Shown: piece after piece, positions 9,449 to 46,841 of the stretch
How positions within the stretch are numbered: position 1 is the stretch's first letter
How the letters are laid out: each line of letters starts with the position of its first letter
Assembly (NCBI RefSeq): GCF_035917335.1
Contig: NZ_CP109067.1
Location: forward strand, 7,315,001 to 7,379,000
Origin: Micromonospora sp. NBC_01813
Lineage (GTDB): Bacteria; Actinomycetota; Actinomycetes; Mycobacteriales; Micromonosporaceae
Direction: 5' to 3'
Length of the DNA stretch: 64,000 nucleotides
Translations under genes and position numbers: made by a program
The notes under the pieces: generated by a model
Seen by the model: the letters and a program-made list of their open reading frames with translations, nothing else
Database searches by the model: none
Told to the model about the DNA's origin: nothing

Positions 9449-9535
9449 GCGACGGCCCAGTCTAGCGACCGGTGATCGACCCGGGATGGCAGGGACCGGC
9501 GGTGGCCCGTCGCGCCTGTCCCGGCCCGCCGGCGG

Positions 9536-12179: not shown

Positions 12180-12308
12180 TGCTGCTCCTTCGACGTGACC
12201 GTGGCTGAGGCGCCGCAGTCGACGTCGAAAGGCTATGAAGGAAGTAGGCCGTCAGTCGTCACCGTCGGGTGGACACTGTCGGGTAGCTCGCAAGGGGGAC
12301 AAGGAGGC

Positions 12309-13088: not shown

Positions 13089-13148
13089 CCTGCCTGCTCC
13101 CTCCGAGGCTGGCTGCCACGTCGGCCCGAGGCTGCCCCGAGGGCGCGC

Positions 13149-16893: not shown

Positions 16894-16940
16894 GGTAGTG
16901 GCCTTCCGGGTGTCGGTCGTCGCCGCCGTACGGGGGGCGG

Positions 16941-17966: not shown

Positions 17967-18136
17967 TGGGCGGGCGCGTCCGCCAGATCGGCTGGTTCGA
18001 GCCGCAGGGTGGCGAGCACCCCGTGGTGCTCCCCGGGATCGACCCACTCCGGCAGTTCACGCTCGACCCAGTCGGCTCGGAGCTGCTGGTCACGGTCGCG
18101 AAGAATACTGACGATCTTGTGCCTGGCGATTTTCAA
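17963..18136 (-). CDS. 57-residue conserved-context protein between lapA and GT4
   Basis: This very short gene starts at TTG 18136, preceded on its strand by GGGAG at a good spacing. It overlaps the lapA stop (TTGA) and its own stop overlaps the GT4 start (GTGA), so it is stitched into the operon on both sides. The product begins KIARHKIVSILRDRD, continues with an acidic DWVERELPEWVDP stretch, and ends acidic. It is highly charged and lacks a membrane segment. No family is recognised. The double coupling and the binding site are the main evidence that it is real. Confidence 0.6.
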   Translation of the reverse strand: MKIARHKIVSILRDRDQQLRADWVERELPEWVDPGEHHGVLATLRLEPADLADAPAQ

Positions 18137-18513
18137 CGGTTACTCCCTGAAGAGGTCGTGCCGGGGGAGCCTTGGCCGGTGATCCTGGTGGTCTGAGGGG
18201 TGCGGTCCCGGCGCTTGGCCAGTCGCCGCTTGACGAGGCGTCGGATGCCGGCGTGCACGGTCACCAGCAGTACGCCGGCCACCGCGGCCAGCAGCAGCGC
18301 GACGCCCACTGGCACCTGCCCGTGGGCACCGAAGAAGTGGACCTCCGTACGCTGACCGTTCTGCAGGATGAAGATCAGCAGCAGGAGCAGCACCACGGCG
18401 GACGCCCCGAACGCGATCAGCGAACCATCCGCGCGGGTGCGCGCCACGGGGCGTGGTCGGTCGTTGACCACGGGTCGGGGCTGCTCGCTGGTGGCGTTGG
18501 CGGGATTGGTCAT
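18133..18513 (-). CDS. LapA-domain (DUF1049) membrane protein
   Basis: This 126-residue protein has two membrane helices (ALIAFGASAVVLLLLLIFI-type segment at about 32-52 and VGVALLLAAVAGVLLVTV at about 68-88) separated by LQNGQRTEVHFFGAHGQ, the core pattern of the LapA/DUF1049 family. The termini are basic and disordered. The family is linked to envelope polysaccharide assembly in Gram-negatives; its role in actinobacteria is unclear. As the first gene of the glycosyltransferase operon, it may act at the membrane with those enzymes. Its stop overlaps the next small gene. Confidence 0.8.
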   Translation of the reverse strand: MTNPANATSEQPRPVVNDRPRPVARTRADGSLIAFGASAVVLLLLLIFILQNGQRTEVHFFGAHGQVPVGVALLLAAVAGVLLVTVHAGIRRLVKRRLAKRRDRTPQTTRITGQGSPGTTSSGSNR

Positions 18514-18759
18514 CGGGACCTCTGTTTCGACGGTGGTACGCGAAGACGCGAACCGCAGCCATCGGGGTCCAGGACGACATCCTCAGCCTACTCCCTGGCC
18601 GGCCTGTTCGCTGCGATGGACGGTTCGGAGCGGCCACGTCCGGGCGCCAACTGCTCGAAACCACGTACCCGCAGACTCGTCGGACGACCAAGTAATAGTG
18701 CGGGTGAGGCGGGGTACGCGCCGGACGGGACACCGACGAACCGCACCCGGAGGACGATG
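18514..18759. promoter_or_regulatory. Divergent intergenic region (lapA operon / P19-like gene)
   Basis: This 246 bp between two divergent genes should carry both promoters. A GGAGGA at 18749-18754 is the ribosome binding site of the rightward gene. No clear -35/-10 pair or repeat was found by eye. Confidence 0.4.
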
Positions 18760-19467
18760 ATGACGACACCGGCCGAGCGCCCGCCGATGCGGGAAAGCAA
18801 CGAAGCGACCGAGGCGCAGCTGGCCGTCGCCCGGCAGCAGGGGCACGCGTACGCGAACGCGCTGCGGGCCATGGCCGCCGAGGACGGCGCGCTGAGCCGC
18901 CGGGCCGGCGACTACGTGGTGTCGTTCGTCAACGAGCGGGCCGAGGGCATGTACGAACTCGCCGACGGGCAACTGGTGTGGCGGGAGGCCGCCGTCGAGG
19001 CGAACGTGCATCTTGAGGTGGCGGTGGCCGACGCCGCCGACGGCCGGTTCGTGCCCGGCCTCCGCGTCGAGATCGACATCACCCGGGACGGGCGACAGGT
19101 CGTCTCGGCCGGGCTGCCGTTCCTCTGGCACCCGTTCCTGTACCACTACGGCGGCAACGCCAGCGTGCCCGACCCGGGGCCGTACGACGTCACGGTGCGG
19201 ATCGCCCCGGCGACGTTCATGCGCCACGACCCGGTCAACGGCAAGCGGTACGCCGGCCCGGTCGAGGTGCGTTTCGACCGGGTGACACTCGCCAACGGGC
19301 GCAAGACCAGCCCGGACGCGCAGCCCCGGGGCGTCGCCGCGCCCACGATGGACGGATCCGGCGGGCGGGACTGGGCAGATGTCGCGGCGACCGCGCGCAG
19401 CTCCGACGATCCTCGGGCCCGTACCCCGCACGACGCGGCCGGGGTGCCCTCGGTGGCCCGGCCCTGA
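18760..19467 (+). CDS. P19/Fe2+-transport-like domain protein without signal peptide
   Basis: This 235-residue protein carries the P19/Tp34 iron-protein fold: NVHLEVAVADAADGRFVPGL, LPFLWHPFLYHYGGN, YDVTVRIAPATFMRHDPVNG and KRYAGPVEVRF. The His and Met residues in these blocks are the metal ligands of periplasmic P19 proteins, which bind copper or iron. There is no signal peptide: the first 60 residues are hydrophilic and helical, so it probably stays in the cytoplasm. The C-terminal 45 residues are low complexity. GGAGGA at 18749 serves ATG 18760 (ATG 18757 is possible). No FTR1 or efflux partner gene is adjacent, so its role is open. Confidence 0.72.
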   Translation: MTTPAERPPMRESNEATEAQLAVARQQGHAYANALRAMAAEDGALSRRAGDYVVSFVNERAEGMYELADGQLVWREAAVEANVHLEVAVADAADGRFVPGLRVEIDITRDGRQVVSAGLPFLWHPFLYHYGGNASVPDPGPYDVTVRIAPATFMRHDPVNGKRYAGPVEVRFDRVTLANGRKTSPDAQPRGVAAPTMDGSGGRDWADVAATARSSDDPRARTPHDAAGVPSVARP

Positions 19468-20699: not shown

Positions 20700-20981
20700 T
20701 CACCCGGTCGCGGCGACCTCCGTGGCCGGCTCGGCCCGTTGGGCGTCGCCGATCGCCAGGACCAGATTGTCTACTGTGTCAATTCTTCGTCCGGGCACGT
20801 CGAACTCGACCTCCACGCCGAGCTCCGACTCGATCGCGTCGACCAGCCGCAGCAGGCCGAGCGAGTCGACCCCCATGGCGACCAGCGATCCGCCGCCCAG
20901 CACCTGTTCGACGGGTACGTCGCCGCCGGTCGCGGCGCTGACCAACTCCGCCACCCGCTGGCGTAGCTTCGCCTCATCCAT
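20700..20981 (-). CDS. Stand-alone acyl/peptidyl carrier protein
   Basis: This 93-residue carrier protein has the phosphopantetheine Ser40 in AMGVDSLGLLRLV, with an acidic helix II as usual for ACPs. It has a GGAGCAGCA ribosome binding site. It is the last biosynthetic gene of the leftward NRPS operon, 43 bp after the C-A-T gene. The operon also has a free adenylate-forming ligase, so the simplest model is that the ligase loads a carboxylic acid onto this carrier, which then feeds the first condensation domain. That pairing is inference. Confidence 0.88.
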   Translation of the reverse strand: MDEAKLRQRVAELVSAATGGDVPVEQVLGGGSLVAMGVDSLGLLRLVDAIESELGVEVEFDVPGRRIDTVDNLVLAIGDAQRAEPATEVAATG

Positions 20982-21024: not shown

Positions 21025-24000
21025 TCAGCGTCCGGCTACCGTCTCCCGGACGATTTCGGCGATTTCGGCGATCGTCGGCGCGTCGAAGAAGGTCTCCAAC
21101 GGCACCTCGACGCCGAGCCGTCGGTGGATCCGGCTGCTGATCCGGGTGACCGTCAGCGAATGCCCGCCCAGGTCGAACAGGTCCTCGTCCACCCCGATGT
21201 CGGCGATCTGCAGCACGTCCTGCCAGATGAGGCGGATCTCCTCGACGATCGGATCCGCGACCGGGTCAGCGACGTCACCGGCACCGGTGTCTGCCGGCTG
21301 CTGATCCGGTTTCGGCAGCGCCGCCCGGTCGAGCTTGCCGTTCGGGCTGGTCGGCAGCTGGTCCAGCAGCACCCAGGCGGCCGGCACCATCGCGGTGGGC
21401 AGCGTCAGCGTGAGGTGCTGCCGCAACTGCGCGACGGTCGGCGCGGCACCCTGCGGCACCAGGTACGCCACCAGCCGGCCCGCGCCGTCGTCGGCCCCGT
21501 TCCCGTCGGCCGCGTTGTCGTCGGCCCCGTTCCCAGCGGTCAGCAGGACCGCCGCCTGGGCCACCGACGGATGCTCCAACAGTCGGGCGGTGATCTCTCC
21601 CAGCTCGACCCGGTGGCCGCGGATCTTCACCTGGTCGTCGGCGCGGCCGAGGAACTCGATCCGCCCGTCCGGCAGCCACCGGCAGATGTCCCCGGTCCGG
21701 TAGAGCCGCCCGGTCGAGCTGTCGCCGATGCCAGCGTCTGCCCCGTCGGCCCCGCCGAACGGGTCGGTGACGAACCGTTCGGCGGTCAGCTCCGGCCGGT
21801 GCAGGTAGCCGGTGGCGACACCCCGGCCGCCGAGATACAGCTCGCCCGCGACCCCGATCGGCACCGGCCGCCGGTGCTCGTCGAGCAGGTACGCGGTGGT
21901 GTTGGCCACCGGCCGACCGATGGTCACCTCGGTCGGCTCCGGCTCGATCTGCGCCATCGTCGCGTAGATCGTCGCCTCGGTCGGGCCGTACCCGTTGACC
22001 AGCCGGTCCACCCGGGCCCGCAACCGTCGGGCCAGCGGCACCGGCAGCGCCTCGCCGCCGGTCACCGCCACCACCCGGTCGTCCAGGCCGGCCTCCAGCA
22101 GCACCCGCCAGCCGGACGGGGTGGCCTGCAGGTGGGTGACGCCGGCCTGGCGGGCCAGCCGCAGCACGCCCGCGCCGTCCAGGGCGCTCACCCCGGCGGC
22201 GACCACCACCCGGCCACCGGTGGTCAGCGGCAGATAGATCTCCACCGCGGAGATGTCGAACGCCAGCGACGTCAGGTGCAGCCACCGGTGCTGCGGCCCG
22301 CCACCGAACTGTTCCCGCATCGCCAGGACCAGGTTGGCCAGCGCGCCGTGCGGCACCGCGACGCCCTTGGGTCGACCGGTCGAGCCAGACGTGTAGAGCA
22401 CGTACGCTAGGTCGGCCGGGCCGGGCTGCGGCCCCACCGACGGGGACGTTTCGGCGGCGGCGGGTCCGGTCAGGTCGACCTGGTCGAGGGCGAGCGCCGG
22501 CGTGCCGGCCGGCAACTGGCCGGCGCCGGCGGCGGTCGTCAGCACCAGCACCGGATCCGCGTCGGCCAGGATCATCTCCTGGCGGGCGGGCGGATACGTC
22601 GGGTCGACCGGCACGTAGCCGGCGCGGCAGCGCAGCACCGCGAGCAGCGCGACGATCGCCTGCCAGGACCGGTCCAGCGCCACCGCGACCAGCGACCCCG
22701 GTTCGACGCCGCGCGCACGCAGCAGCTCGGCGAGCCGGGCACTGGCCCGGTCGAGTTCGGCGTAGCTGAGGCTGTGCGCACCGTCGACCACCGCGACCGC
22801 CGCCGGGTCGCGCCGCACCTGCTCGGCGACGAGCGTCAGTACGGTGACCTGCGGTGCGACCGCCCGGCCGGTGGTGTTCCAGGCTCGGCAGACCAGTTCG
22901 AGTTCGTCGGCGGGCAGCAGCGGCAGGTCGACGACCGGCTGCTCCGGGTCGGTGGTGACCGCGGCGAGCATGGTCTGCAGGTGGCTGCCGATCCGGGCCA
23001 CCGCTTCCACCGGCAGCACCGCCGGGCTGTGCTGCAGGCTCAACTCGACGGTGTCCGTACCGTCGGGGTGTGGTCCGTCGACGACCTGGACGTGCAGCGC
23101 GTTACGGGCGGCGCCGCCGAACAGCGTCCACTCCACGGTGGTCGCGACCTGATCGAAGACGGGCTCCGGCCCGCGTCGGCGGTATCCGAAGGAGACCGGG
23201 GTCACCGACGTGGCCGGGCGCAGTCCGGTGACCACATGGGCCAGCGGCACGCAGCGGAACGCGTTCAACGCGCGTACCTGCTCGCGGACGGCCAACGCGT
23301 GCTCGCGGAAACTTCCGTCGGTGACCGCGACCCGGACCGGCAGTTCGTTGACGAACAGCCCGACCTCGTCGGCGGTCCCGGCGGTCCGGGTCGACAGGCC
23401 GACCCCGACCGGCACCTGATCGTTGCCGTAGCGGGCGAGGACGGTGTGCAGCACCGTCAGCAGCAGCTCGAACCGGGTCACGCCGAGCTTGCGGCGGGCC
23501 TGGTCGAGCCCGGAGACCAGGTCGGGCGCGAGGGTGAGCCGCACCGCGTTGCCCGGCTCGGCGGCGGTCGGCGTGCGGGTCGACCCGGGCAGCACCACCC
23601 CACCCGGCCCCGACCAGTGGGTGGCCCAGTGGTCGCGGGCCGCCGCCGACTCGGCGGCCACCCGGTCACGTTCGACCGCCGCGCGGTCGGCGTACCCGGT
23701 CGTCGCCGCCGGCAGGTCGGCCGGCCGACCCGACCGGGCCGCGTCGTACGCCGTCGCCAGGTCCCGGACCAGCACGTCCTTGGACATCCCGTCGAAGACC
23801 AGGTGGTGGGCGGTGACCAGGAGCAGTCGGCGGTCGTCCGCACCGGTCAACAGCAGGAACCGGGCCAGCGGCCCGGTCCGCAGGTCGTGCCGGCGGGCGA
23901 TCTCGGCGGTGACCGCGTCGTCGAACGATCCGTCGGCGAGGTCGACCTCGCGCAGCGCCGGGCCCGGTGCGGCCGGCACCAGCCGGGGTACGCCGTCGGT

Positions 24001-24189
24001 GTCGTCGACCCGGGTGGCCAGCACCGGATGCCGGGCGAGCACCGTGGCGCACGCGGTGGCGAGCGCGGTCCGGTCCAGATCGGCGGCGAACCAGATCCCA
24101 AGAGCCATGTGGTACGCCGTACCGGCGACCCCGGCCTGTTCGGTGAACCAGACGGCATGCTGCGCGTACGTCGCTTCGGCGGTGCTCAC
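21025..24189 (-). CDS. NRPS module C-A-T (Gly-like specificity code)
   Basis: This 1054-residue module has a condensation domain at about 1-430 (active site HHLVFDGMS), an adenylation domain at about 440-930 (LYTSGSTGRPKG, NGYGPTEATIYA, YRTGDICRW, NGKLDRAALP) and a carrier domain with Ser1011 in DLGGHSLTVTR. Aligning by eye to GrsA gives the 10-letter code DIVQVGGIYK, which resembles my memory of glycine codes (DILQLGLIWK); confidence in the amino acid is low. A short GADDNAADGNGADDG repeat sits in the A subdomain. GTG 24189 overlaps the ligase stop. There is no TE, so it should pass its product to another module. Confidence 0.9.
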   Translation of the reverse strand: MSTAEATYAQHAVWFTEQAGVAGTAYHMALGIWFAADLDRTALATACATVLARHPVLATRVDDTDGVPRLVPAAPGPALREVDLADGSFDDAVTAEIARRHDLRTGPLARFLLLTGADDRRLLLVTAHHLVFDGMSKDVLVRDLATAYDAARSGRPADLPAATTGYADRAAVERDRVAAESAAARDHWATHWSGPGGVVLPGSTRTPTAAEPGNAVRLTLAPDLVSGLDQARRKLGVTRFELLLTVLHTVLARYGNDQVPVGVGLSTRTAGTADEVGLFVNELPVRVAVTDGSFREHALAVREQVRALNAFRCVPLAHVVTGLRPATSVTPVSFGYRRRGPEPVFDQVATTVEWTLFGGAARNALHVQVVDGPHPDGTDTVELSLQHSPAVLPVEAVARIGSHLQTMLAAVTTDPEQPVVDLPLLPADELELVCRAWNTTGRAVAPQVTVLTLVAEQVRRDPAAVAVVDGAHSLSYAELDRASARLAELLRARGVEPGSLVAVALDRSWQAIVALLAVLRCRAGYVPVDPTYPPARQEMILADADPVLVLTTAAGAGQLPAGTPALALDQVDLTGPAAAETSPSVGPQPGPADLAYVLYTSGSTGRPKGVAVPHGALANLVLAMREQFGGGPQHRWLHLTSLAFDISAVEIYLPLTTGGRVVVAAGVSALDGAGVLRLARQAGVTHLQATPSGWRVLLEAGLDDRVVAVTGGEALPVPLARRLRARVDRLVNGYGPTEATIYATMAQIEPEPTEVTIGRPVANTTAYLLDEHRRPVPIGVAGELYLGGRGVATGYLHRPELTAERFVTDPFGGADGADAGIGDSSTGRLYRTGDICRWLPDGRIEFLGRADDQVKIRGHRVELGEITARLLEHPSVAQAAVLLTAGNGADDNAADGNGADDGAGRLVAYLVPQGAAPTVAQLRQHLTLTLPTAMVPAAWVLLDQLPTSPNGKLDRAALPKPDQQPADTGAGDVADPVADPIVEEIRLIWQDVLQIADIGVDEDLFDLGGHSLTVTRISSRIHRRLGVEVPLETFFDAPTIAEIAEIVRETVAGR

Positions 24190-25748
24190 GTGACCCTCCC
24201 GGTGCTGTGTTGGTCGTCGACGGGTCGGTGTTCGCCGAACAGCGTCGTCAGTTGTCGTTTGAGGACCTTGCCGGCCTCGTTGCGGGGCAACGCCTCGGTG
24301 AGGACCAGCCGGGCCGGCAGTTGGTAGTCGGCGAGCCGGTTGGTGAGGAACGCGCGTACCGAGGCGAGGTCGAGGTCGGTGCCGGTGCGGCCGGGTCGGG
24401 GCACCAGCACGGCGGCGACCGCCGCACCGAGGACCGGGTGCGGTACGGCCAGCACGGCGGCCTCGGCGACGGCCGGATGCTCGTGCAGGGCCGCCTCCAC
24501 CTCCAAGGTGGAGATCTTGAACGCGCCAGACTTGATCATGTCCTGGTGCCGGTCGGCGAGGTAGAGGTAACCGTCGGCGTCGAGCCGACCGAGGTCGCCC
24601 ATCCGGACCCAACCGTCCCGGAAGGTGGCCCGGTTGGCACCCTCGTCGCGGTAGTAGGCGCGTGGGTGCGCGCACCGCAGCCACACCTCCCCGACGGACC
24701 CCGCCGGCAGCGGCCTGCCCTGCTCGTCGGCGATCCGCAGCTGCCCGTCGACGGCGCGGCCGACCGAGGCCCGGCGCCCCGGGTCGTAGACCATCACCGT
24801 CTGCGCGGGGGCGGCCTCGGTCGACGAGTAGTAGTTGACGATCGTCGCGGCCGGAAACGTCGCTGCGAGCCGGGCGGCCACCGCCGGTGGCAGCGCCGCC
24901 GCGGTGGACCCGATCAGCACCACCCCCGAGGTGTCCCGCCCGCGTAGTGCGCCCGAGTCGAGCAGCTCGATCGCCATCGACGGCACCAGGAAGATGGTCC
25001 CGGTGCCGGGTGTGGCGACCAATCGCGCGAACCGGGCGGGGGTGAACCGGGCCAGGGTCGACGCGGTCGCCTTCGCGGTCAACGCGTTGAACAGCATCGT
25101 CTGCCCGGCGTTGGTGCCGATCGGGAAGGCGTGCAGGAACCGTTGCGAGTGGGCCAGCGCCAGCCGGCGTGCCTGGTTCGGCGCCCCGGCGACAAGATTG
25201 GCATGGCTGGCACCGACGCCCTTGGGCCGCCCGGTGGTGCCCGAGGTGTAGAGGATCTGCGCCAGGTCGTCCGGCCGCACGTCAGGTGCCGACCCGCCAC
25301 CACCGGCCTCGCCACCGCTACTGGCCCCGGCGGCGACCAGGTCGGCGACGGGCCGGACGGCCACCCCGGGCGGCGTCGGCGGGGCGGCCCCGGTGGCACC
25401 GCCGCCGGCCAACGGACCGTGGATCACCAACCGGGCGTCGCAGTGCCGCAGCGCGTACGCCAGCTGGGCCGGCGCGAGCCGGTCGGACAGTGGCACCGCC
25501 ACCGCCCCGGCGAGCAGCACCCCGCAGTACGCGACCGCGTACCCGGTCCAGTCGCGGGCCCCGAAGACCAGGCCGACCCGGTCCCCGGCGGTGACGCCGT
25601 CGGCGTGCAACGTGGCGGCGACCGCGCGGGCACCGGCCTGCCATCCGGCGAACGTGAGCTGGTCGACGCCGTGCACCTCGATCGCCACCCGGTCGGGGTG
25701 CAGCGTGCAGCGCCAGTCGAGCAACTCCGGCACGGTCTGGGCACTCAC
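24186..25748 (-). CDS. Stand-alone adenylate-forming ligase (acyl/aryl-AMP ligase)
   Basis: This 520-residue class I adenylate-forming enzyme has ILYTSGTTGRPKG, NYYSSTEA, GWVRMGDLG, GAFKISTLEVE and the catalytic Lys in NEAGKVLKR. It lacks the Asp that anchors amino groups in NRPS A domains and resembles acyl-CoA or fatty/aryl acid-AMP ligases more than amino acid activators. It probably activates the starter carboxylic acid and transfers it to the free carrier protein or CoA. It overlaps both NRPS genes by 4 bp, so all three proteins should be made in a fixed ratio. Confidence 0.88.
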   Translation of the reverse strand: MSAQTVPELLDWRCTLHPDRVAIEVHGVDQLTFAGWQAGARAVAATLHADGVTAGDRVGLVFGARDWTGYAVAYCGVLLAGAVAVPLSDRLAPAQLAYALRHCDARLVIHGPLAGGGATGAAPPTPPGVAVRPVADLVAAGASSGGEAGGGGSAPDVRPDDLAQILYTSGTTGRPKGVGASHANLVAGAPNQARRLALAHSQRFLHAFPIGTNAGQTMLFNALTAKATASTLARFTPARFARLVATPGTGTIFLVPSMAIELLDSGALRGRDTSGVVLIGSTAAALPPAVAARLAATFPAATIVNYYSSTEAAPAQTVMVYDPGRRASVGRAVDGQLRIADEQGRPLPAGSVGEVWLRCAHPRAYYRDEGANRATFRDGWVRMGDLGRLDADGYLYLADRHQDMIKSGAFKISTLEVEAALHEHPAVAEAAVLAVPHPVLGAAVAAVLVPRPGRTGTDLDLASVRAFLTNRLADYQLPARLVLTEALPRNEAGKVLKRQLTTLFGEHRPVDDQHSTGRVT

Positions 25749-28700
25749 CGGGCGCTCCGGGCCAGTTGCCGCTGCTGCCGCGCCAACCGCGCCTGCCGCG
25801 CTTCGAGCCCGACCAGGTCGTCCGGTGGGGCGTCCGGCACCTCGTCGTCGAACCGCGACAACACCCGGGTTCGCAGCGAGACGACCGCGGTCAGCGCGAT
25901 ACACAGTCCGAAGGTGATGTAGAGCAGCGCGATGCCGCGACCGGGCCCTACCCCGATCACCACGCCGACCGAGGAGGCCAGCGCGCCGCCCGGCATCAGC
26001 AACGGCTCCATCGCACTGGTGGCCAGCGGCGCGATCACCCCCCAACCCAGCGGCATGGTCGACCAGGCCACCATCTGGTTCAGGGCGAACACCCGACCGT
26101 GGAACCGGGGCGGCACCTTGATCTGGACGATGGTGTTGTAGACCCCGTTGACCAGGCCCAACGCGCAGTACATGCCGAACACGCCGGCTCCGATGACCAG
26201 CAGGTTCGGCCGCAGCCCGGTCAGCACGCAGGCCACCGCGATGCCCAGCGTCCCGACCAGCACCACCCGCATCCGGTAGCGGCGTGGGCCACCCCAGACC
26301 AGCATCACCAGGCCGCCGACGGCCGCCCCGACCCCGCCGATCAGCGCGATCCGGGCGACCTGCGCCAACTCGGCGAAGCCGAGGACCAGCGGGGAGACCA
26401 GGAACAGCACCGGGAACAGGAACAGGTTGAGCGCGGCGAAGAAGGTGAGCATGCCGCGGAACTCGCGACGGCTCAGCGAGTAGCGCAACCCGCCGACGAT
26501 CTCCTGCCAGAGGCTCTCCCGTCGCTGCAACGCGAGCGTGCGGGGGAAGCGGATGACGATCAGCACCACGACGGCGAACACGTAGGCCACCACGTCGATG
26601 ACCATGATGCCGGGCAGTCCGACCGCCTCCAGCAACGCCACCGCCAGCAACGGGACCATGAACTGGGTCAGTCCGACGGCGGTCTGGGTCAGCCCGTTGG
26701 CGTGCCCGAGGAAGCGTTTGGGCACCAGCTGCGGCACCGCCGACACGAAGGCCAGCCGCTGGAAGGCCAGCACCACCGACAGCCAGCCGACGAGCAGGTA
26801 GAAGTGCCAGATCTCGGCCCGGTCGGTGAGCAGCAGCCCGGCCAGCACCGCCTTGGCGCCCCCGGCGGCGACGCTCGCCGCCAGCAGGACCCGCCGCCGG
26901 CTGGTCCGGTCGATCACCGCCCCGGCCAGCGGTGCGATCAACAGCCCGGGGAGCAGGCTGACGATCGAGAAGAGCGCGAACCTGGCCAGCGAACCGGTCT
27001 CCAGATAGATCCACAGCGGTACGGCGAAGTTGGTCAACGCGGTGCCGGTGGTGGTGATGATCTGCCCGACCGCGATCAGCCCGAACCGGCCCAGGCTCGG
27101 CTGTGGTGCCGCCGACGTCCGAGCCGCCGACCCGGCACCGGGCGGACCGGGTCCGTCGTGGGTGCCGACCGGCGGGCCGGGTCCGTCGCCGCCCGCGCCC
27201 GGACTGCGGTCGGAGACGGCCTGCAGTCGCCACGCCGAGTCGTCGACCGGGTCGGAACCGGCGCCGGCCATGGTGTCGTCGGCCGGTGGCGGCGGCGCGG
27301 CGAGCCGCAGGTGGGTGCCGGTGACGATCTCCGCCAGCTCGTCGGCCCGGTACTTCAGGAAGTAGTGGCCCGCCTCGTCGACCACCGCCAACGCGGTGCG
27401 GTCGGACAGGAAGTGCCACTCCTGGAAGCGTTCCTCATGGAAGTCGGTGCCCCGGTCCCGTTCGCCGACCACCGAGATCACCGGTGCCCGAAGCTTGGTG
27501 ACCTGGTCACGCAGCAGCGCGGTGAAGTAGTCCTCGGAGACCCGGGCGTCGTGGCGCATCGCCCGGATCAGGAAGGCAACCTCGTCCGGGTCGAGCGAGC
27601 CGATCGAGGTGCCCTGCGCCTGCAGCCAGGTGCGGTAGATCCGGTCCGAGCGGATCCGCTCCACCAATCGCAGCCGCAGCAGCGGGCCGAAGATCCCGCC
27701 GGTCGGCCGACCGAACGGAAAGACCGCCCCGAGGTACACCGCGTCCAGTTCCCGGCCGGCGGCCTCCAACCGGCGGGCCACCTCGACGGCGAGCGCGCCG
27801 CCTGGACCGCAGTGCCCGTACAGGATCAGTGGTCCCTCGACGCGGGCCAGGATCTCGGCGACCACGCCCCCGGCGACCTCCTCGATGGGCGCGGGCTCGT
27901 CGGCCAGGCCGATGTCGTGTCCGGGCACCGCCACCGACAGCAGCCGGTAGCCGGCTGGCAGCGCGTCGGCGAGCGGCTGGTACACCACCGCGCTGCCGCC
28001 CCCGTACGGGACGCAGACCAGGGTGGCGACCGCCGGGCCGGCCGGCGCCGGGGCGGTCAGTTCGTGCAGCAGCGCGCCTCGGTCGGCGGCGCCGTCGGTG
28101 AGCAGGTCGGCGAGTTCGCGTACGGTCCGGTGCCGGAACAGGTCCATCACGCTGACCGTCGGTGGCCCGCCGTCACCGGTGTGCACGCCCGGTAGCTCCC
28201 GGCGCAACCGGGCGACCACCTGGGTGGCCAGCAGCGAATGCCCGCCCAGGTCGAAGAAGTCGTCGGTGGCCCCCACCCGGGGCACCTTCAGGACGGCCCG
28301 CCAGATGTCGGCGATCAGCGTCTGCACCGGCCCGGTCGGCTCGACGTACGCGCCGGTGGGTTGCTCGTCGACCGGGTCCGGCAGCGCCGCGCGGTCGATC
28401 TTGCCGTGGTCCTGCAGCGGCAGCCGGTCCAGCCAGCGGTACCGACCGGGGATCATGTGTTCCGGCAGCCGGTCGGCGAGCGCCCGGCGCAGCTCGGCCG
28501 GTGCCAGCTCCGACGCCGGGGCGGATGGTTCCAGGTAGCCGACCAGCCGGTCGCCGCGCAGCACGACGGCGGCCTGCCGCACCCCGGGCAGCTCCCGCAG
28601 GGCCGCCTCGATCTCGCCCAGCTCCACCCGGTAGCCACGGATCTTGACCTGGTGGTCGGTGCGGCCGAGGAAGACCAGCTGCCCGTCGGCCCGCCAGCGG

Positions 28701-31375
28701 CCGAGGTCCCCGGTGCGGTAGAGCCGGGCGCCGGGCGGCCCGAACGGATCCGGCACGAACCGCTGCCCGGTCAACTCGGGCCGGCGCAGGTAGCCCCGGG
28801 CCAGCCGGTCACCGCCGAGGTACACCTCGCCGGGCACCCCGACCGGCACCGGGCACATCCGGGCGTCGAGCACGTACACCCGCGCGTACGGCAACGGGCG
28901 GCCGATCGGCACGCTGCCCGGCCCGTGTTCGTCGGCCGAGACCCGGTACGTGGTGACCCCGACGGTCGCCTCGGTCGGTCCATAGTGGTTGAAAACCGGT
29001 ACGCCGTGGCCGGCCAGCTCGGCGGCCCAGTCCAGATCGGCCGCCTCGCCGCCGAGGATCAGCGCCCGGCGGGGCAGTAGCCGTGCGGTGTCGACCTCGG
29101 CGGCCAGTGCCCGAAGGTGCGACGGCGTCATCTTCAGGTAGTCGATCCGGCCGGCACGCAGCGCGTCGGCGAGCTCCTCGCCGGTGCACCGCCTCGGCAC
29201 CAGGTGTACGCAGCCCCCGGTGGCCAACGCGAGGTAGAAGACCGTGACACTGAAGTCGAACGACAGCGACTGCAGCAGCGCGTACCGGCTGGTCGGCACG
29301 ATGTCGAACCGGTCGGCGACCCCGTCGAGGTAGTTCAGCACCTGGCGGTGCGCGACCGCGACGCCCTTGGGGACACCCGTCGAACCCGAGGTGTAGATGA
29401 CGTACGCCAGGTCGTCGCCGCTCGCGCCGTCGGCCGGCGGATGCGTCGGCCGCCCGGCCACCACCGAGGCGATCCGGTCCAGGCAGGTCGCGTCGGCCAG
29501 CGGATTCGCCGGGCCGTCGCCGCCATCCCCGAGCCCGGCGCGGGTCGCGGTGTCGGTCAGCACCACCGTCGGGGCGGCGTCGGCGAGCATCAGCGCCAGC
29601 CGGGCCGGCGGCTGTTCCGGGTCGAGCGGCAGGTAGGCACCACCGGCCCGCAACACCCCGAGCAGCGCCACCGCCAACTCCACCGACTGCTCCAGGCAGA
29701 CCCCGACCAGCTGGCCGGGTCCGACGCCCTGCTGCCGCAGCTGGTGGGCCAGCTGGTTGGCGCGGCGGTCCAGGTCGGCGTAGTCGATGCGGGCGTCGCC
29801 GCAGACCACGGCCGGTGACCGTGGCGTCGCGGCGGCGTGCCGGGTGATCAGGTCACCGAGGGTGGCCACCCCGGCGGTGGCCAGCCGGGGCCGGTCGGCC
29901 GCCGGGACCGGCCCGGTGCCGAAGTCGAGCAGCTGTCGCCGCTGCCCGTCGTCGAGCAGCGGCAGGTCGACGACCGGCCGGTCGGGTTCGGCGACCGCGG
30001 CGCGTAGCAGCGCCTGGAAACGGTCGGCGAGCCGCGCCACGGTCGCCCGGTCGAACAGGTCGGTGTTGTAGACCAGCATCGCCCGCAGCCCGTCGTCGGC
30101 CTCGCTGACGTACAGCGACAGGTCGAACCGGGCGGCGGCGGCGTCGCTGCCGAACGGCGCGGTGCCGATCCCGGCCGGCCAGTCGCTCACCGCCCGGGAG
30201 TAGTTCTGCAGCGTGAACAGCACCTGGAACACCGGGGCCCGGCCGACGTCGCGGGTGACGTTCAGCTCCTTGACCAGCCGTTCGAACGGGATCTCCTGAT
30301 GGCTCAACGCGCGCAGCACCCGGCTGCGGGTACGGCGTAGCAGCTCGCCGAAGCCCGGCTCACCGCCGCTGCCAGCGGTGCCGGTGCTGCCGCTCCCAGC
30401 GGTGTCGCTGCCGGCGGTGGCGGACAGGTCGGCCCGGATGGCCACCGTGTTGACGAACAGCCCGACCAGGCCCTCCACCTCCGGCACCACCCGGCCGGCG
30501 ACCGGGGAGCCGACGGCGAAGTCCCGCTGCCCGCTGTGCCGGAACAGCACCGCCTGCCAGCCGGCGAGCAGGGTCATGTAGAGGGTGCTGCGGTAGGTCC
30601 GGCCCAGCCGGCGCAGCCCGGCGGTGAGGTCGGCGTCGAAGGCGAAGCGGTGCACGTCCCCGGCGTACGACGCGACGGCCGGTCGGGGCCGGTCGGTCGC
30701 CAACTCCAGCGGTGGCACCCCGGCGAGCGCCTCGGACCAGTAGTCGAGCTCGCGGCGCGCGGCCGGGCCGTCGCTGCGTTCCCGCTGCCAGGCGGCGTAG
30801 TCGGTGTAGTCGATGGTGGGCGGCGCGGGGACCGGGCGGCCGTCGGTGAGCGCCCCGTACAGGCCGGCGACCTCGGCGAGCAGCAGGTTCAGCGACCAGC
30901 CGTCGCTGACGATGTGATGCATCCCGACATGCAGCACCTGGTCGGTGGGGCCCAGGCGGACCAGCAGCGCCCGCAGCAGCGGCGCGGTCGCCAGGTCGAA
31001 GGGCGTGCGCACGGCGGCGTCGACCACCTCGCGCGCAGCCGCCTCGTCGACGGCGTCGACCATCGTGAACGGCACGCTCACCTGCCGCGCGACCTCGACC
31101 TGGGGCGCGCCGTCACGACTCTCGGTGAACCGCATCCGCAGGCTGTCGTGCCGGGCGGCGGCGGTGTCCAGCGCCGCGCGCAGCAGGTCGGCGTCGACCG
31201 GCCCGCGCAGCCGTACGGTGCTGTGCACGACGTACGCGGCGGTGCCCGGGGTCAGCTGCTCGGTGAACCAGATGCGCTCCTGACCGAACGATAATTCCGG
31301 ACTTTGCCCTTTTCGGTGCTGAATCCCATGTGATTGAATCGGGACGTCCTGCGCTGGTAAGTCGAGATTCGTCAC
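25745..31375 (-). CDS. NRPS C-A-T-TE fused to an MFS transporter
   Basis: This 1876-residue fusion has a condensation domain (25-450, HHIVSDGWS), an A domain (505-1000, IYTSGSTGVPKG), a carrier Ser1047 in DLGGHSLLATQ, a thioesterase (about 1117-1370) and an MFS transporter of about 12 helices (1428-1850). The A-domain code read by eye is DFTKIGHVGK, very close to aspartate codes (DLTKVGHIGK). The TE nucleophile motif is GHCGPG, so Cys1189 (codon 27809-27811) replaces the usual Ser. A Thr/Gly/Ser repeat lies in the C domain near residue 340. GTG 31375 has GAAGG upstream; ATG 31408 and a start at 31492 are alternatives. It should release and export the product. NRPS/MFS fusions are known from other actinomycetes. 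Confidence 0.9.
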   Translation of the reverse strand: MTNLDLPAQDVPIQSHGIQHRKGQSPELSFGQERIWFTEQLTPGTAAYVVHSTVRLRGPVDADLLRAALDTAAARHDSLRMRFTESRDGAPQVEVARQVSVPFTMVDAVDEAAAREVVDAAVRTPFDLATAPLLRALLVRLGPTDQVLHVGMHHIVSDGWSLNLLLAEVAGLYGALTDGRPVPAPPTIDYTDYAAWQRERSDGPAARRELDYWSEALAGVPPLELATDRPRPAVASYAGDVHRFAFDADLTAGLRRLGRTYRSTLYMTLLAGWQAVLFRHSGQRDFAVGSPVAGRVVPEVEGLVGLFVNTVAIRADLSATAGSDTAGSGSTGTAGSGGEPGFGELLRRTRSRVLRALSHQEIPFERLVKELNVTRDVGRAPVFQVLFTLQNYSRAVSDWPAGIGTAPFGSDAAAARFDLSLYVSEADDGLRAMLVYNTDLFDRATVARLADRFQALLRAAVAEPDRPVVDLPLLDDGQRRQLLDFGTGPVPAADRPRLATAGVATLGDLITRHAAATPRSPAVVCGDARIDYADLDRRANQLAHQLRQQGVGPGQLVGVCLEQSVELAVALLGVLRAGGAYLPLDPEQPPARLALMLADAAPTVVLTDTATRAGLGDGGDGPANPLADATCLDRIASVVAGRPTHPPADGASGDDLAYVIYTSGSTGVPKGVAVAHRQVLNYLDGVADRFDIVPTSRYALLQSLSFDFSVTVFYLALATGGCVHLVPRRCTGEELADALRAGRIDYLKMTPSHLRALAAEVDTARLLPRRALILGGEAADLDWAAELAGHGVPVFNHYGPTEATVGVTTYRVSADEHGPGSVPIGRPLPYARVYVLDARMCPVPVGVPGEVYLGGDRLARGYLRRPELTGQRFVPDPFGPPGARLYRTGDLGRWRADGQLVFLGRTDHQVKIRGYRVELGEIEAALRELPGVRQAAVVLRGDRLVGYLEPSAPASELAPAELRRALADRLPEHMIPGRYRWLDRLPLQDHGKIDRAALPDPVDEQPTGAYVEPTGPVQTLIADIWRAVLKVPRVGATDDFFDLGGHSLLATQVVARLRRELPGVHTGDGGPPTVSVMDLFRHRTVRELADLLTDGAADRGALLHELTAPAPAGPAVATLVCVPYGGGSAVVYQPLADALPAGYRLLSVAVPGHDIGLADEPAPIEEVAGGVVAEILARVEGPLILYGHCGPGGALAVEVARRLEAAGRELDAVYLGAVFPFGRPTGGIFGPLLRLRLVERIRSDRIYRTWLQAQGTSIGSLDPDEVAFLIRAMRHDARVSEDYFTALLRDQVTKLRAPVISVVGERDRGTDFHEERFQEWHFLSDRTALAVVDEAGHYFLKYRADELAEIVTGTHLRLAAPPPPADDTMAGAGSDPVDDSAWRLQAVSDRSPGAGGDGPGPPVGTHDGPGPPGAGSAARTSAAPQPSLGRFGLIAVGQIITTTGTALTNFAVPLWIYLETGSLARFALFSIVSLLPGLLIAPLAGAVIDRTSRRRVLLAASVAAGGAKAVLAGLLLTDRAEIWHFYLLVGWLSVVLAFQRLAFVSAVPQLVPKRFLGHANGLTQTAVGLTQFMVPLLAVALLEAVGLPGIMVIDVVAYVFAVVVLIVIRFPRTLALQRRESLWQEIVGGLRYSLSRREFRGMLTFFAALNLFLFPVLFLVSPLVLGFAELAQVARIALIGGVGAAVGGLVMLVWGGPRRYRMRVVLVGTLGIAVACVLTGLRPNLLVIGAGVFGMYCALGLVNGVYNTIVQIKVPPRFHGRVFALNQMVAWSTMPLGWGVIAPLATSAMEPLLMPGGALASSVGVVIGVGPGRGIALLYITFGLCIALTAVVSLRTRVLSRFDDEVPDAPPDDLVGLEARQARLARQQRQLARSAR

Positions 31376-31432
31376 CCGGATTGCCTTCAATCTGTCTGCC
31401 TGAACCATCAGAGTGACTGTCGTGATCGACAC
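31376..31432. promoter_or_regulatory. Divergent promoter region of the NRPS cluster
   Basis: The two start codons lie only 57 bp apart and the surrounding 250 bp is clearly richer in A+T than the cluster. Both operons probably have promoters here, overlapping the annotated 5' ends. If the rightward gene starts at GTG 31458 or ATG 31509, the spacer is longer. No operator was recognised. Confidence 0.4.
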
Positions 31433-32968
31433 ATGGGAATCAACTTTTGGGGCATCGTGGTGCAGACGAACGATCGATTCGACGCAAGTCATGCCGTCGT
31501 ACTGTCAGGAATGCGATTCGCGGATGCCGTGGTGCCGGACGAGTGGGCCAACGAGGAGTTGGCGTACGCGGAGTTCGGTGGTGGCCGGACCGAGACGGGC
31601 CCGATGACCTGGGCTCAGCAGGTGATGTGGCGGGCAGCCATGTTGTCGAAGACCCAGCATCTGTTCCTCAACCTGCGTCGGGTGCTTCCGGTGCCGAGGC
31701 GCGCTCCCGGCGACCTGCCGAGCGTCACCCGCGCGATCGGGCAGCTGGTCGCCCGGCACGGCGGGCTGCGTACCCGGGTCTGCCTGGTCGCGGACGGCAC
31801 CTCGCAGCAGGAGACCGCCGCGTCCGGTTCGGTGCCGATCCTGGTGGTCGCCGGTGACGGCGACGGCACGCAGGCCGCCGCCGGCCTCACCCGCCGGCTC
31901 GGCGACGTGGCCTTCGACCACGGTCGGGAGTGGCCGGTGCGGTTCGCCGTGGTGCTGGTCGACGACCGGGTACGCCAGGTGGTGCTGATCTTCAGTCATT
32001 CCACGGCCGACGCGTACGCGGTCGACGTGATCCTGCGTGACCTGCGGGTGCTGCTGCTGCGCGGCGAACTGTCCACCCCGGCCGGGCTGCAGTCGGTGGA
32101 CGTCGCCCGTTGCCAGCACGGGCCGGACCAGGTGCGGTCGGGCCGCGCCGTGGCGTACTGGGCCCGGCAGTACGGTCGACTGGCCGGAACCGTGTTCGAC
32201 CAGGTGGCGCCGGAGCTCACGCCGCGACTGCACCGGGGCACCCTGGTCTCCCCGGCGATCGCCACCGCCGCCCGGATGATCGCCGCCCGGCACCGGGTCA
32301 GCCTCTCCACCGTCCTGCTGGCGGCCAGCACCGCGCTGAGCGCGGGCACAGCCGGGCGCCAGGTCTGTGGATTGTTCAACATGGCGCACAACCGCTTCCG
32401 CCCCGAGTACCGCAATGCGGTGGCGAACCTCGGCCAGATCGGATTCTGCGTGCTGGACATCGCCGATCGGCCGAGCTTCTTCGAGCTGCTACCACGAATC
32501 TACCGGGTCGCGCTAGACGGCTATTTGCACGCCTACTATGACGCGGCCGCGATGCGAAAGAATTTCGAGGACCTCGGGTACGACTACACCACGGCATTCC
32601 TGCCGTACTACTATTTCAACGACGTCCGACTGCCCGTCGGCAATGCGGTCGACGATGTGGAGCCGGTCGCCGAGGGCGTCCTGCGGGCCGCCGCCGAGCG
32701 CAGCGAATTCTCCTGGACCGACGGGCTCGACGTCGCCTCCTGGCACCAGCTGATCCACGTCGTGGACGCCCCGGACGCCGTCGGCGTCACGTTGAGCACC
32801 GACACCCGGTTCCGGCCGCCGGCCACGATCGAGCCGTACCTGCGGGACCTGGAGACACTGCTGATCGACGCCGCGTACCGGGACGTCCCCTGGCCCTGGC
32901 AGCCCCGTCGGTCGGCGGCGGCCGGCTTGTCGGCGAGCGCCGGCGGACCGGGCCGAGCCGGCAGGTGA
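31433..32968 (+). CDS. Stand-alone condensation-domain-like protein 1
   Basis: This 511-residue protein shows the condensation-domain fold: an N-terminal MTWAQQVMWRAAM, the active-site region IFSHSTADAYAVD, then NMAHNRFRPEYRNAVANL and NLGQIGFCVL, which match the C-domain DFGWG-side core only loosely. The canonical HHxxxDG is SHxxxDA: His189 (the general base position) and Asp193 remain, while the first His is Ser. It could be an acyltransferase, esterase-like tailoring enzyme or inactive scaffold. It overlaps the next paralogue (GTGA at 32965). The start is uncertain: ATG 31433, GTG 31458 or ATG 31509, none with a strong binding site. Confidence 0.72.
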   Translation: MGINFWGIVVQTNDRFDASHAVVLSGMRFADAVVPDEWANEELAYAEFGGGRTETGPMTWAQQVMWRAAMLSKTQHLFLNLRRVLPVPRRAPGDLPSVTRAIGQLVARHGGLRTRVCLVADGTSQQETAASGSVPILVVAGDGDGTQAAAGLTRRLGDVAFDHGREWPVRFAVVLVDDRVRQVVLIFSHSTADAYAVDVILRDLRVLLLRGELSTPAGLQSVDVARCQHGPDQVRSGRAVAYWARQYGRLAGTVFDQVAPELTPRLHRGTLVSPAIATAARMIAARHRVSLSTVLLAASTALSAGTAGRQVCGLFNMAHNRFRPEYRNAVANLGQIGFCVLDIADRPSFFELLPRIYRVALDGYLHAYYDAAAMRKNFEDLGYDYTTAFLPYYYFNDVRLPVGNAVDDVEPVAEGVLRAAAERSEFSWTDGLDVASWHQLIHVVDAPDAVGVTLSTDTRFRPPATIEPYLRDLETLLIDAAYRDVPWPWQPRRSAAAGLSASAGGPGRAGR

Positions 32969-34356
32969 ACCAGGTGGACTTCGCCGGTGAGCCGGCCGGC
33001 AGCGCCCCGCTGACCTGGGGTCAACTGGCCATCTGGCCGCACCGGGCGGCGATCGACGCCCCACACCGGGTGCTGAACCTGCCGCGCACGCTGCGGGTGC
33101 CGGACCGGGTGGACGCCGACGTGGCCCAGGTGAGTACGGCGATCCGGCGGCTCGTCGAGCGGCACCACTCGCTGCGTACCCGGATCCTGGCCGGCCCGGA
33201 CCAGCTGCGACAGGACGTCTCGGCGACCGGCACGTTGCCGGTACGGCTGCGCACCGTAGCGCCGTCGGCGGCCGACCCGCAGGGCGCGCAGGCCGCCCGC
33301 GACCTCGCCGCCGACCTTGCCGCCACCGACTTCGACCATCGCCGGGAGTGGCCGCTGCGGGTCGGCCTGGTCCAGATCGGCCGGCGGGTACGGCAGGTGG
33401 TGTTGGTGTTCAGCCACGTCGTGGTCGACTTCCACGCCGCCGAGATCCTGCTGCGGGACCTGCGGCTGCTGCTCCTGCGCGGCGCGGTCACGGTGCCGGC
33501 GGGCTGGCAGTCGGTGGACGTCGCGAACCACGAACACGACCACGAGGCGGCCCGGTCGGACCGGGCGGCGCGCTACTGGCTCGGCCAGTTCGCGAAGCTC
33601 CCACCGCAGATGTTCGCCCCAGCCGCCAGCGTCGGTGCGCAGGTCAGCGTCGGTGGCGACACTGGCCCGGCGCCGCGCTACCTGGTGGGCCGGTTGGTCT
33701 CGTCCGCCGTCGACACCGCGACCCGGGCGATCGCCGCCCGGCACCGGGTGAGCACCGCGACCGTGCTGCTGGCGGTGATCGCCGCCCGGGTCGCCGCCCG
33801 GGCCGGGCTCGACCGGTGCGGGCTGGTGATGATGTCCAGCAACCGGTTCCGCGCCCGGTACGACACCGCCGTCGCCAGTCTCAACCAGATCGGGCTCTGC
33901 CAGCTGGAGCTGCCGGCCCGGTCCGCACAGGTGGCGGACCGGGCCGGGTTCGCCGACCTGCTGACCGGGGCCTGGCAGGCGTCGCTGGCGGCGTACCGGC
34001 ACGCCTACTACGACCCGGTGGCGCTGGCGAGGGCGTTCGCCGCGCAGGGCCACGATCTGGCCGGTGCGCTCGCCCCGTACTGCTTCGTCAACGACCTGCG
34101 GCTGCCGCACGAGGCCGGGCCGGTGCCAGCGGTGCCACCGGGGCGGCTGCGGGCGATGGCCGACGGGACCTCACTCACCTGGGACGTCGCGCCGGCGCGG
34201 TTCGCCTGGCGATGCCGGTTCCAGGTGATGGACGCCCCGGACGGTCTGGCGCTGGTGGTGACGGCGAACACCGACTACCTGCCGGCCGGCGATGTCGAGG
34301 AGTTGCTGCGGGGGATCGAGACGGCGCTGGTCGCGGCCGCTTGCGACGACTACTGA
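32965..34356 (+). CDS. Stand-alone condensation-domain-like protein 2
   Basis: This 463-residue paralogue of the preceding protein shares LTWGQLAIWPHRAAI, ATDFDHRREWPLRVGLV, VFSHVVVDFHAAEILLRDL, TRAIAARHRVSTATVLLA and NRFRARYDTAVASLNQIG. The active-site motif is SHxxxDF with His151 and Asp155 kept and the first His replaced by Ser, the same change as in its partner. GTG 32965 overlaps the upstream stop, so the pair is made together and may form a heterodimer. It ends exactly one base before the stop of the convergent membrane-protein gene. Its substrate is presumably an intermediate or product of the divergent NRPS. Confidence 0.72.
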   Translation: MNQVDFAGEPAGSAPLTWGQLAIWPHRAAIDAPHRVLNLPRTLRVPDRVDADVAQVSTAIRRLVERHHSLRTRILAGPDQLRQDVSATGTLPVRLRTVAPSAADPQGAQAARDLAADLAATDFDHRREWPLRVGLVQIGRRVRQVVLVFSHVVVDFHAAEILLRDLRLLLLRGAVTVPAGWQSVDVANHEHDHEAARSDRAARYWLGQFAKLPPQMFAPAASVGAQVSVGGDTGPAPRYLVGRLVSSAVDTATRAIAARHRVSTATVLLAVIAARVAARAGLDRCGLVMMSSNRFRARYDTAVASLNQIGLCQLELPARSAQVADRAGFADLLTGAWQASLAAYRHAYYDPVALARAFAAQGHDLAGALAPYCFVNDLRLPHEAGPVPAVPPGRLRAMADGTSLTWDVAPARFAWRCRFQVMDAPDGLALVVTANTDYLPAGDVEELLRGIETALVAAACDDY

Positions 34357-35349
34357 TCAGGTCCACGGAGCCATCGGGTACCAGGGGATGATGTCGCGGC
34401 GGGCCAGCAGACGGACGTCCCAGTAGAGAAACATGAAGGCGCCCGCCGCGATCAGCGCGACCGCCGTGACCACGGTGATCCGGCGCGGGTTGGCGGCAAA
34501 CCACCGTTGCAGGCGGCCGCCGAGGAGGAACGTCAGCGCCAGCAGCAGGACCGCCATCACCAGGATGTTGCCCAGCGACTGGAGCACGAACGCCGCCGCG
34601 CCGTACAGCGGGTTGCCGCTCTCCGCCGCGTCGCGGAACAGCTGCCGGAACAACGCGAACGGCCGTCCGATCAGGAAGCCACCGACCAGGGCGCCCATCA
34701 GCACCATCGGCGCGTTCGGGAATCGGTTGGCCACCCGGGCCAGCGGGTCGGGCACGATGCCCAGTGCCGCCAGTCCGAGGTAGACCATGACCAGGCCGAT
34801 CACGCCGTACACCACCATCGACTGGATCGACCGGGGGGACAGCGAGCCGGGGGTGTTCGCCACGGTGGAGAACTGCGGCATGCTGGTGCCGACGAAACCG
34901 ACCACCGCGCCGTAGAGAGCGGAGACGCCGATCATGCCGACGGCGAGCCAGCCGAGCGGACGCAGCGTGAGCCGGAGCCGGTCCAGTCGGCTGCCACCCT
35001 TGCCCAGCAGCGGGGCCATGGTGCCGAAGACCGCCACGTTGCAGGCGGTGAAGGTGCCGGCCAACCCGGAAACGAAGGCGAAGGCGATGCCGGCGGCGAT
35101 GCCGGCGATCGCGGTCTCCTTGGCGTCGTGGCCGAGCAGGGTGTTGGCGACGTTGTCGCCGATGGTCTGGTCGACGAACTCTGCCGACCAGATGACGGTC
35201 AGCAGGAAGCCGCCGAGGACGGCGAGGAGCGCGATCAGGCCACGGCGACGCGGAAAGTAGCCGTTGACGAACAGCGAGCTGGGTGGGCTGTCGGGGGCTG
35301 GCGAGCGGGTGGTCTCCGGGGCCTGGGTCGTGGAGCGCAGCTGCGACAT
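34357..35349 (-). CDS. Polytopic membrane protein, CcdA/DsbD-like pattern
   Basis: This 330-residue protein has about eight hydrophobic segments and a short basic N-terminus. The segment AFVSGLAGTFTACNVAVFGT resembles the first cysteine-containing helix of CcdA/DsbD electron-transfer proteins (pattern G-x5-PC), but only one Cys is seen and the Pro is absent, so redox activity is doubtful. It starts at ATG 35349 after GGAGCAGA. Its stop abuts the stop of the second condensation-like gene, so it may be part of the same cluster or its edge. Function is unknown. Confidence 0.6.
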   Translation of the reverse strand: MSQLRSTTQAPETTRSPAPDSPPSSLFVNGYFPRRRGLIALLAVLGGFLLTVIWSAEFVDQTIGDNVANTLLGHDAKETAIAGIAAGIAFAFVSGLAGTFTACNVAVFGTMAPLLGKGGSRLDRLRLTLRPLGWLAVGMIGVSALYGAVVGFVGTSMPQFSTVANTPGSLSPRSIQSMVVYGVIGLVMVYLGLAALGIVPDPLARVANRFPNAPMVLMGALVGGFLIGRPFALFRQLFRDAAESGNPLYGAAAFVLQSLGNILVMAVLLLALTFLLGGRLQRWFAANPRRITVVTAVALIAAGAFMFLYWDVRLLARRDIIPWYPMAPWT

Positions 35350-40603: not shown

Positions 40604-40904
40604 TGGGGTTCCTCCTCGGACAGGCGCCGTCGAGTTGACGTGCCGCCGATGATTCTGCGGTGGACCCGGGCCCTTTCCGGTGCTCACGACGGTGGCGGGT
40701 GGCGGACATGGCGCAACTCCGCCACCTGCGTGAACGTGCGCCTCGTCGGCGTACCGCAGGATGGTGTCGGCGGCAACCGGGCCGAAACGCCGCAGTTACC
40801 CGCCGGCCCAGCGGGGCGAAGCGCCGCCGTGATCCGTCAGGCCCGGCAAGGCGAAGCGCCGCCGGCTCAGCCGGCGGCGCTCCAGGTGACTCAGGTTGCG
40901 TGGC
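40604..40904. other. Intergenic region upstream of the subtilase
   Basis: This 301 bp holds the subtilase promoter and ribosome binding site on the right-to-left strand and the terminator hairpin of the sugar transporter operon at 40856-40880. GCGAAGCGCCGCC is repeated at 40816-40828 and 40851-40863 in G+C-rich spacer. No gene is seen. Confidence 0.5.
40856..40880 (-). terminator. Terminator of the chvE-gguA-gguB operon
   Basis: A near-perfect 12-bp inverted repeat (40856-40867 and 40869-40880; arm GCGCCGCCGGCT) with a one-base centre lies 24 bp past the permease stop on the minus strand. Confidence 0.7.
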
Positions 40905-43621: not shown

Positions 43622-43628
43622 GGTCTGC

Positions 43629-44771: not shown

Positions 44772-44944
44772 GAGCGTCTCCCCTCAGGTGGGATGCCGCG
44801 CGAGCGGTCGTCGCGGGCGGGAGGTGCCGGGTTCGCAGGCCGCGGCCGAAGGTGCCGGTCGAGGCCCGGGGACGTGGCAGGCACGCGGACGGCATCGCCG
44901 ACCGCGTGGGATGTGTTGCCTGGTCGTTGGCGATGTGGACAGCA

Positions 44945-46752: not shown

Positions 46753-46841
46753 ATCGGTCCGCCCGATCCCCCGGGATCGTTTCGACCGCCCGGCCGTCCG
46801 GCCAACCGGCGGATGGCATCGGCCTCAGCGGGAGGTATGCA

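Follow-up and report, generated by a model that had tools for sequence, protein, structure and literature searches.

The window analysed here, a stretch of 64,000 nucleotides from Micromonospora sp. NBC_01813 (contig NZ_CP109067.1, positions 7,315,001 to 7,379,000), carries on its minus strand the gene of a nonribosomal peptide synthetase (NRPS), NRPS2 (25745..31492), whose thioesterase (TE) domain has a cysteine as nucleophile and is fused to an exporter. The open reading frame comprises 1915 amino acids counted from the ATG at 31492, although the real start may be nearer to 31390-31375. Pfam places the domains Condensation, AMP-binding, PP-binding, Thioesterase and MFS_1/MFS_3 in this order along the protein, that is, a single chain of condensation (C), adenylation (A), thiolation (T), TE and MFS domains. 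Within the TE domain (approximately residues 1151-1396; 27305..28042, minus strand), the codon at 27811-27809 of the minus strand is TGC and lies in TAC GGG CAC TGC GGT CCA GG (YGHCGPG). The preliminary description of this locus had recognised the cysteine in GHCGPG (27809..27811) correctly but called it Cys1189, a count starting at the GTG at 31375; with the ATG at 31492 as start, the same codon encodes Cys1228.

Modelling of the TE domain and its alignment with ObiF1, both proposed in the preliminary description, placed this cysteine at the nucleophile elbow and not away from it. In the predicted structure it is model residue 84, between a strand (78-82) and a helix (85-100; mean pLDDT 76.8, pTM 0.82). 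Cys1228 is thus the nucleophile-elbow cysteine of the TE. The alignment supplies the remainder of the triad, namely Asp1346 (27455..27457), which follows strand beta7 and aligns with ObiF1 Asp1254 and SulM Asp2926, and His1376 (27365..27367), which aligns with ObiF1 His1284. The catalytic aspartate therefore stands at position II and none is found at position I, the arrangement that marks the ObiF/SulM lineage by the definition for cysteine TEs in excerpts of PMC6668435 and PMC11298585. In our row counts position I was read at Gly1255, whereas another alignment sets ObiF1 Gly1173 on the next residue, Ala1256. Two arginines complete the picture. Arg1281 (27650..27652) is invariant across 31 aligned sequences and aligns with ObiF1 Arg1190, whose exchange to alanine lowered product formation about 10-fold (PMC6668435, in part). 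At the position of Arg1279 (27656..27658), two separate groups with Asp-type terminal modules each have arginine in 70% or more of their rows, compared to 6 of 35 Ser-type rows, and this residue may be a candidate binder of the aspartate side-chain carboxylate.

The cysteine is widely conserved. Among the 80 loci listed by a search in named genomes, at least 30 TE-MFS relatives were found, all of them with GHC, the aspartate after strand beta7 and the histidine, in Micromonospora and its kin, Streptomyces, Kitasatospora, Streptacidiphilus, Streptosporangium and Actinomadura. Since the relatives keep GHC, the cysteine is more than chance, and a sequencing or annotation artefact is ruled out. 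A search of the window's bacterial family, in which 110 loci were examined and pooled with the loci found earlier, gave 133 related TE rows of at least 64 bits (the window is row L089), and 131 of them possess the elbow cysteine; these rows are not independent, as many are near-copies and the genome sets may overlap. The two exceptions are L161, with glycine, and L188, in which two frames share the TE: the row covers one half, and the cysteine lies in the other. Considering the MFS-bearing rows, 117 of 119 have cysteine, one has glycine and one could not be read, so that serine occurs in none of those read. The 11 rows scoring below 64 bits lack an MFS domain and cluster with type II TEs. L161 itself is a TE-MFS protein with GHGGAG in an open frame of 769 amino acids that revealed no A domain, and is possibly a decayed or repurposed copy.

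The characterisation of cysteine TEs as rare in the preliminary description needs to be qualified. Out of 200 genomes of the window's bacterial family, at least 110 contain a TE match at E <= 1e-12 and at least 91 at E <= 1e-20, the weakest of these matches being type II TEs and the cysteine having been read in part of the matches. In a sample of 396 genomes of the phylum, five had a match at E <= 1e-20, the window's own genome among them. The TE-MFS fusion is common in the bacterial family of the window, and a literature search by title or beginning of the abstract found no report of an NRPS-TE-MFS fusion. The family to which the window TE belongs looks large and little studied.

The proposed kinship with ObiF is supported. 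ObiF1 is the best match in the PDB by sequence (E 9.5e-26) and the top match of a fold search with the TE model, being tied with SulM in a second comparison. In a tree built from rows thinned at 72% identity, the window TE falls into one clade with ObiF1 and SulM, apart from the type II TEs, with a support of 100/99, and the type II TEs are the nearest outgroup with serine. The rows L189-L196 are called type II Ser by their position in the tree and their elbows were not read, while L001, L003 and L004 from the window's own genome have GHSMG. A second tree recovers the clade of ObiF1, SulM and the window with 100/100, SulM forming a long branch, and contains a small subclade with serine at the elbow inside it. 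This subclade represents a natural Cys/Ser switch, and two of its members (L264 and L267) have TauD and an SbnA-like gene nearby. The 39 MFS-bearing tree rows, in which L161 with its glycine elbow is counted as Cys_MFS, form one clade (100/97), for which one fusion origin suffices.

To our knowledge, ObiF1 and SulM are the members of this lineage that are characterised and comparable, and both close four-membered rings. The ObiF1 TE of obafluorin biosynthesis (PDB 6n8e; PMC6668435, in part) shares with the window TE the GHC cysteine, the position-II aspartate, a small residue at position I, the histidine and the arginine corresponding to Arg1281. However, the two are only 33% identical, ObiF1 continues after the TE with an MbtH-like domain and not with an exporter, and its terminal residue is beta-hydroxy-homophenylalanine, whereas that of the window is Asp-like. 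SulM from sulfazecin biosynthesis (PDB 8w2c) is more distant, with 24% identity and the fifth rank by sequence among the PDB matches, behind BorB and RifR. The features of a SulM-type beta-lactam TE, Gln-Cys-Asn and a diaminopropionate module (as given in the excerpts of PMC11298585), are absent from the window TE, which has His-Cys-Gly and an Asp-like code in the terminal module. Type II TEs (RifR, BorB, RedJ) resemble the window TE in fold and in the position-II aspartate, but they are stand-alone enzymes, have a serine elbow (RifR, BorB) and lie on the opposite side of the 100/99 branch. AB3403 and EntF have the order C-A-T-TE, and the nucleophile of AB3403 is also a cysteine (PMC11298585, in part), but their catalytic aspartate is at position I and they are weak sequence matches (E 0.0071 and 0.61, respectively). 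A release like that of the siderophore synthetase EntF is disfavoured by the position-II aspartate of the window TE and by the poor match.

The exporter domain of NRPS2 (approximately residues 1456-1870; 25883..27127, minus strand) lies behind a linker rich in proline, alanine and glycine. In a model of the TE and MFS parts together (mean pLDDT 77.1), about 68 residues, mostly of low confidence, separate the last TE helix from the first MFS helix. The MFS part forms a long helical bundle in the model, and a crude hydropathy count gives eight segments; taken alone, it had no relative in the PDB by sequence at E <= 0.001. The fused MFS domain is a pump that probably exports the TE product. The TE and the exporter in one chain, as first described, recur in 119 of the 133 rows, and together with the single origin of the fusion this suggests that it matters to have release and export in one chain. 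A reactive product may be freed next to its transporter.

The terminal residue presented to the TE was predicted from the pocket codes of the A domains. The terminal A domain of NRPS2 (28400..29845, minus strand) has the code DFTKIGHVG, which reads Asp. For comparison, a survey (PMC12283262, in part) lists DLTKVGHVGK for Asp and Asn domains, mostly Asp, DLYNMSLIWK for Cys, DVWHLSLVDK for Ser, DFWNIGMVHK for Thr and DILQLGMIWK for Gly. Across the set of cysteine TEs, 100 of the 127 readable terminal codes point to Asp (55), Ser (39), Cys (5) or Thr (1). Among the thinned tree rows, 26 of 44 read one of these four residues, compared to 7 of 40 type I TE controls with serine (p 1.2e-4, Fisher), and among the thinned rows bearing an MFS domain it is 24 of 36 (p 1.8e-5, Fisher); the controls come from the same bacterial family with short frames passed over, are unthinned and include 26 of 40 codes without an assignment, one of them unreadable, as well as 4 cases in 40 where the A domain lies more than 700 amino acids from the TE.

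The sister groups without an MFS domain add to this picture. In the group with the code DMYxLGLMD (L176, L177, L178), an SHMT-family gene is located beside all three, and in the DIWQSTA group (L179, L184-L187) genes for an ATP-grasp ligase, a lyase and TauD adjoin all five. A wider view of one row of the latter group (L207) also showed an SbnA-like enzyme; SbnA-type enzymes make diaminopropionate precursors. Because the terminal codes are skewed towards Ser, Thr, Cys and Asp and the MFS-free sisters lie beside SHMT-family or diaminopropionate-type genes, TEs of the ObiF/SulM lineage seem to go with terminal residues that would be capable of attacking the thioester through their side chain. Two further loci touch on this subject. 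L206 encodes at 8565-14062 a cysteine-TE module (GQCSGV) followed directly by an SHMT-family gene, whose closest solved structures are labelled SHMT, and recalls the obafluorin pathway; homologues are present in L177 and L178. The obafluorin transaldolase was initially assigned to the SHMT family (PMC5490192, in part). L038 has at 14357-18226 a C-T-TE-MFS protein without a detected A domain, which follows a C-A(Ser)-T module.

NRPS2 shares its operon with the genes of an acyl-AMP ligase of the ANL family, which probably activates the starter acid (24186..25748), of the C-A-T protein NRPS1 with the code DIVQVGGIY, Gly-like with some uncertainty (21025..24189), and of a free-standing acyl carrier protein (20700..20981), all on the minus strand. 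In the opposite direction, two condensation-like acyltransferases are encoded at 31511..32968 (SHSTADA; reading frame open from 31433) and 32965..34356 (SHVVVDF) on the plus strand, both retaining the SHxxxD motif. This pair is fused into one protein of 943-974 amino acids in all seven Micromonospora context loci and is split in the window and in L216. No siderophore genes were recognised among the scanned neighbours of the cluster; a weak match to Fe2+ transport (E 1.2e-5) lies at 18172-19467. Elsewhere, the window contains a large S8 subtilase-family protein with carboxypeptidase-regulatory repeats (36638-40687), an ordinary sugar-use locus with two sugar-type ABC transporter sets, a LacI regulator, an FGGY kinase and an L-arabinose isomerase (40905-55632), and FtsK/SpoIIIE, pSAM2-type RepSA and integrase genes adjoining a tRNA-Arg (3518-9448), which resemble an integrative and conjugative element of actinomycetes.

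Tentatively, we favour the view that a TE of the ObiF/SulM lineage ends an acyl-peptide line here, that the side chain of the terminal residue captures the chain as an aspartyl anhydride and that the fused MFS domain exports the product. The line would run from the ligase and the acyl carrier protein over C-A-T to C-A(Asp)-T-TE and make a short acyl-peptide, which would pass from the carrier protein to Cys1228 as a thioester and be released when the side chain of its own terminal residue attacks. With Ser, Thr or Cys, as read for sister enzymes, this would form a four-membered ring; in the window, with Asp, a five-membered aspartyl anhydride would arise, which could remain intact, acylate another molecule or hydrolyse to the acid, and the product would leave via the pump of the same chain. 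While the cysteine, the triad residues, the clade, the fusion and the pocket codes are taken from sequence or model, we infer the thioester transfer, the side-chain capture and the export. Several points weigh against such a capture. Aspartate lacks a beta-hydroxyl, amino or thiol group, so that the four-membered ring of ObiF and SulM is impossible without prior modification. Aspartyl anhydrides are labile in water, and we know of no natural product of this kind. Furthermore, of the 44 terminal codes in the non-redundant set 17 have no assignment, and the lineage includes TEs with a serine elbow (GHSAG and GHSSG in L264, L265 and L267), which means that the cysteine is not strictly required in it. 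A cysteine alone is also no proof of cyclisation, as AB3403 has a nucleophilic cysteine and its product is unknown (PMC11298585, in part).

It is quite conceivable, if somewhat doubtful, that water simply frees a linear acyl-X-Asp from Cys1228, which the MFS domain then exports, the cysteine being merely inherited and no ring being formed in the Asp-type branch. The missing beta-nucleophile speaks for hydrolysis, as do Arg1279, which could keep the side-chain carboxylate from reacting, and the type II TEs as nearest serine outgroup, a grouping with SulM and ObiF1 that also appears in the excerpts of PMC11298585. A plain hydrolase, however, would not need the skew of the clade towards nucleophilic terminal side chains, and serine is absent from the MFS-fused TEs read. 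Instead of water, an outside amine or alcohol might take the acyl-Cys thioester, perhaps aided by the two adjoining condensation-like proteins. Such proteins with SHxxxD occur alongside the Asp-type clusters in the window, in L216 and in all seven Micromonospora context loci, and the hydrolysis seen with ObiF1 C1146S was ascribed to a higher reactivity of thioesters than of oxoesters towards a hydroxyl (PMC6668435, in part). But they may simply join the starter acid, and of the four Asp-type contexts from Streptomyces and Kitasatospora only L020 has one, with the motif missing by pattern. Such a transfer is improbable. A role as a fused type II TE, proof-reading the chain and not releasing it, is highly improbable for the domain: the closeness of serine type II TEs, which also have the aspartate at position II (PMC11298585, in part), would fit, but the window TE sits in cis behind the terminal T domain, is parted from the type II rows by the 100/99 branch and shares its cysteine with the release domains of ObiF1 and SulM.

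The beta-lactone release suggested earlier by analogy to obafluorin is unlikely for the window copy. As the side chain of aspartate has nothing but a carboxylate to offer, a beta-lactone could form only from beta-hydroxy-aspartate, for instance through a hydroxylase that modifies the loaded aspartate in trans before the TE closes the ring as for obafluorin; we give this little chance. Pocket codes for Asp do serve beta-hydroxy-aspartate as well (PMC12283262, in part), and the window's own genome has a TauD protein (G000:C1:7258859-7259767) with 60% identity to the TauD beside Asn/Ser TE-MFS clusters. It is located about 55 kb ahead of the window start, however, among ketosynthases of another region. 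A TauD match at E <= 1e-20 exists in eight of the 16 genomes with an Asp-type cluster (in three of the eight, only below 40% identity) and is missing from the other eight, and none of the 14 Asp-type contexts searched contains TauD. A Pfam scan of 33 window proteins, three of which gave no family, including 34357-35349 beside the cluster, showed no SHMT-type transaldolase, hydroxylase, P450 or other oxygenase, the rest of the genome not having been searched for P450s and other oxygenases. Since TauD is absent from the Asp-type contexts and from half of the genomes, we place side-chain capture and hydrolysis close together and the beta-lactone well behind them. Going by the codes, a beta-lactone would better fit sister enzymes that read Ser or Thr. 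Four clusters (L199, L202, L213, L214) in which TauD adjoins C-A(Asn)-T and C-A(Ser)-T-TE-MFS, along with small proteins of the MbtH and ketoreductase/dehydratase clusters, are predicted to make hydroxy-Asn/Ser peptides and would be the best place for one.

The observation made on the window TE is confirmed and extends further than first stated. One could go on to assume that the TE-MFS enzymes as a whole are a release-and-export family, in which side-chain capture closes a small C-terminal ring, either strained or reactive, that is then passed to the pump of the same chain, sparing the producer; we regard this as rather unlikely in its full breadth, and the same applies to the assignment of the ring types, beta-lactone for Ser and Thr, beta-thiolactone for Cys, aspartyl anhydride for Asp and possibly lactam for Orn. 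It can be tested whether the cysteine and the position-II triad dictate ring closure, how they act on aspartate and for what reason release is coupled to export. One scaffold is combined with a predicted terminal Ser, Thr, Cys or Asp, and a pump is fused to most of the inspected TEs. If the release-and-export proposal is true, the TE-MFS enzymes would represent a large untapped source of such strained or reactive warheads in actinomycetes, and the window would stand for its anhydride-making branch.
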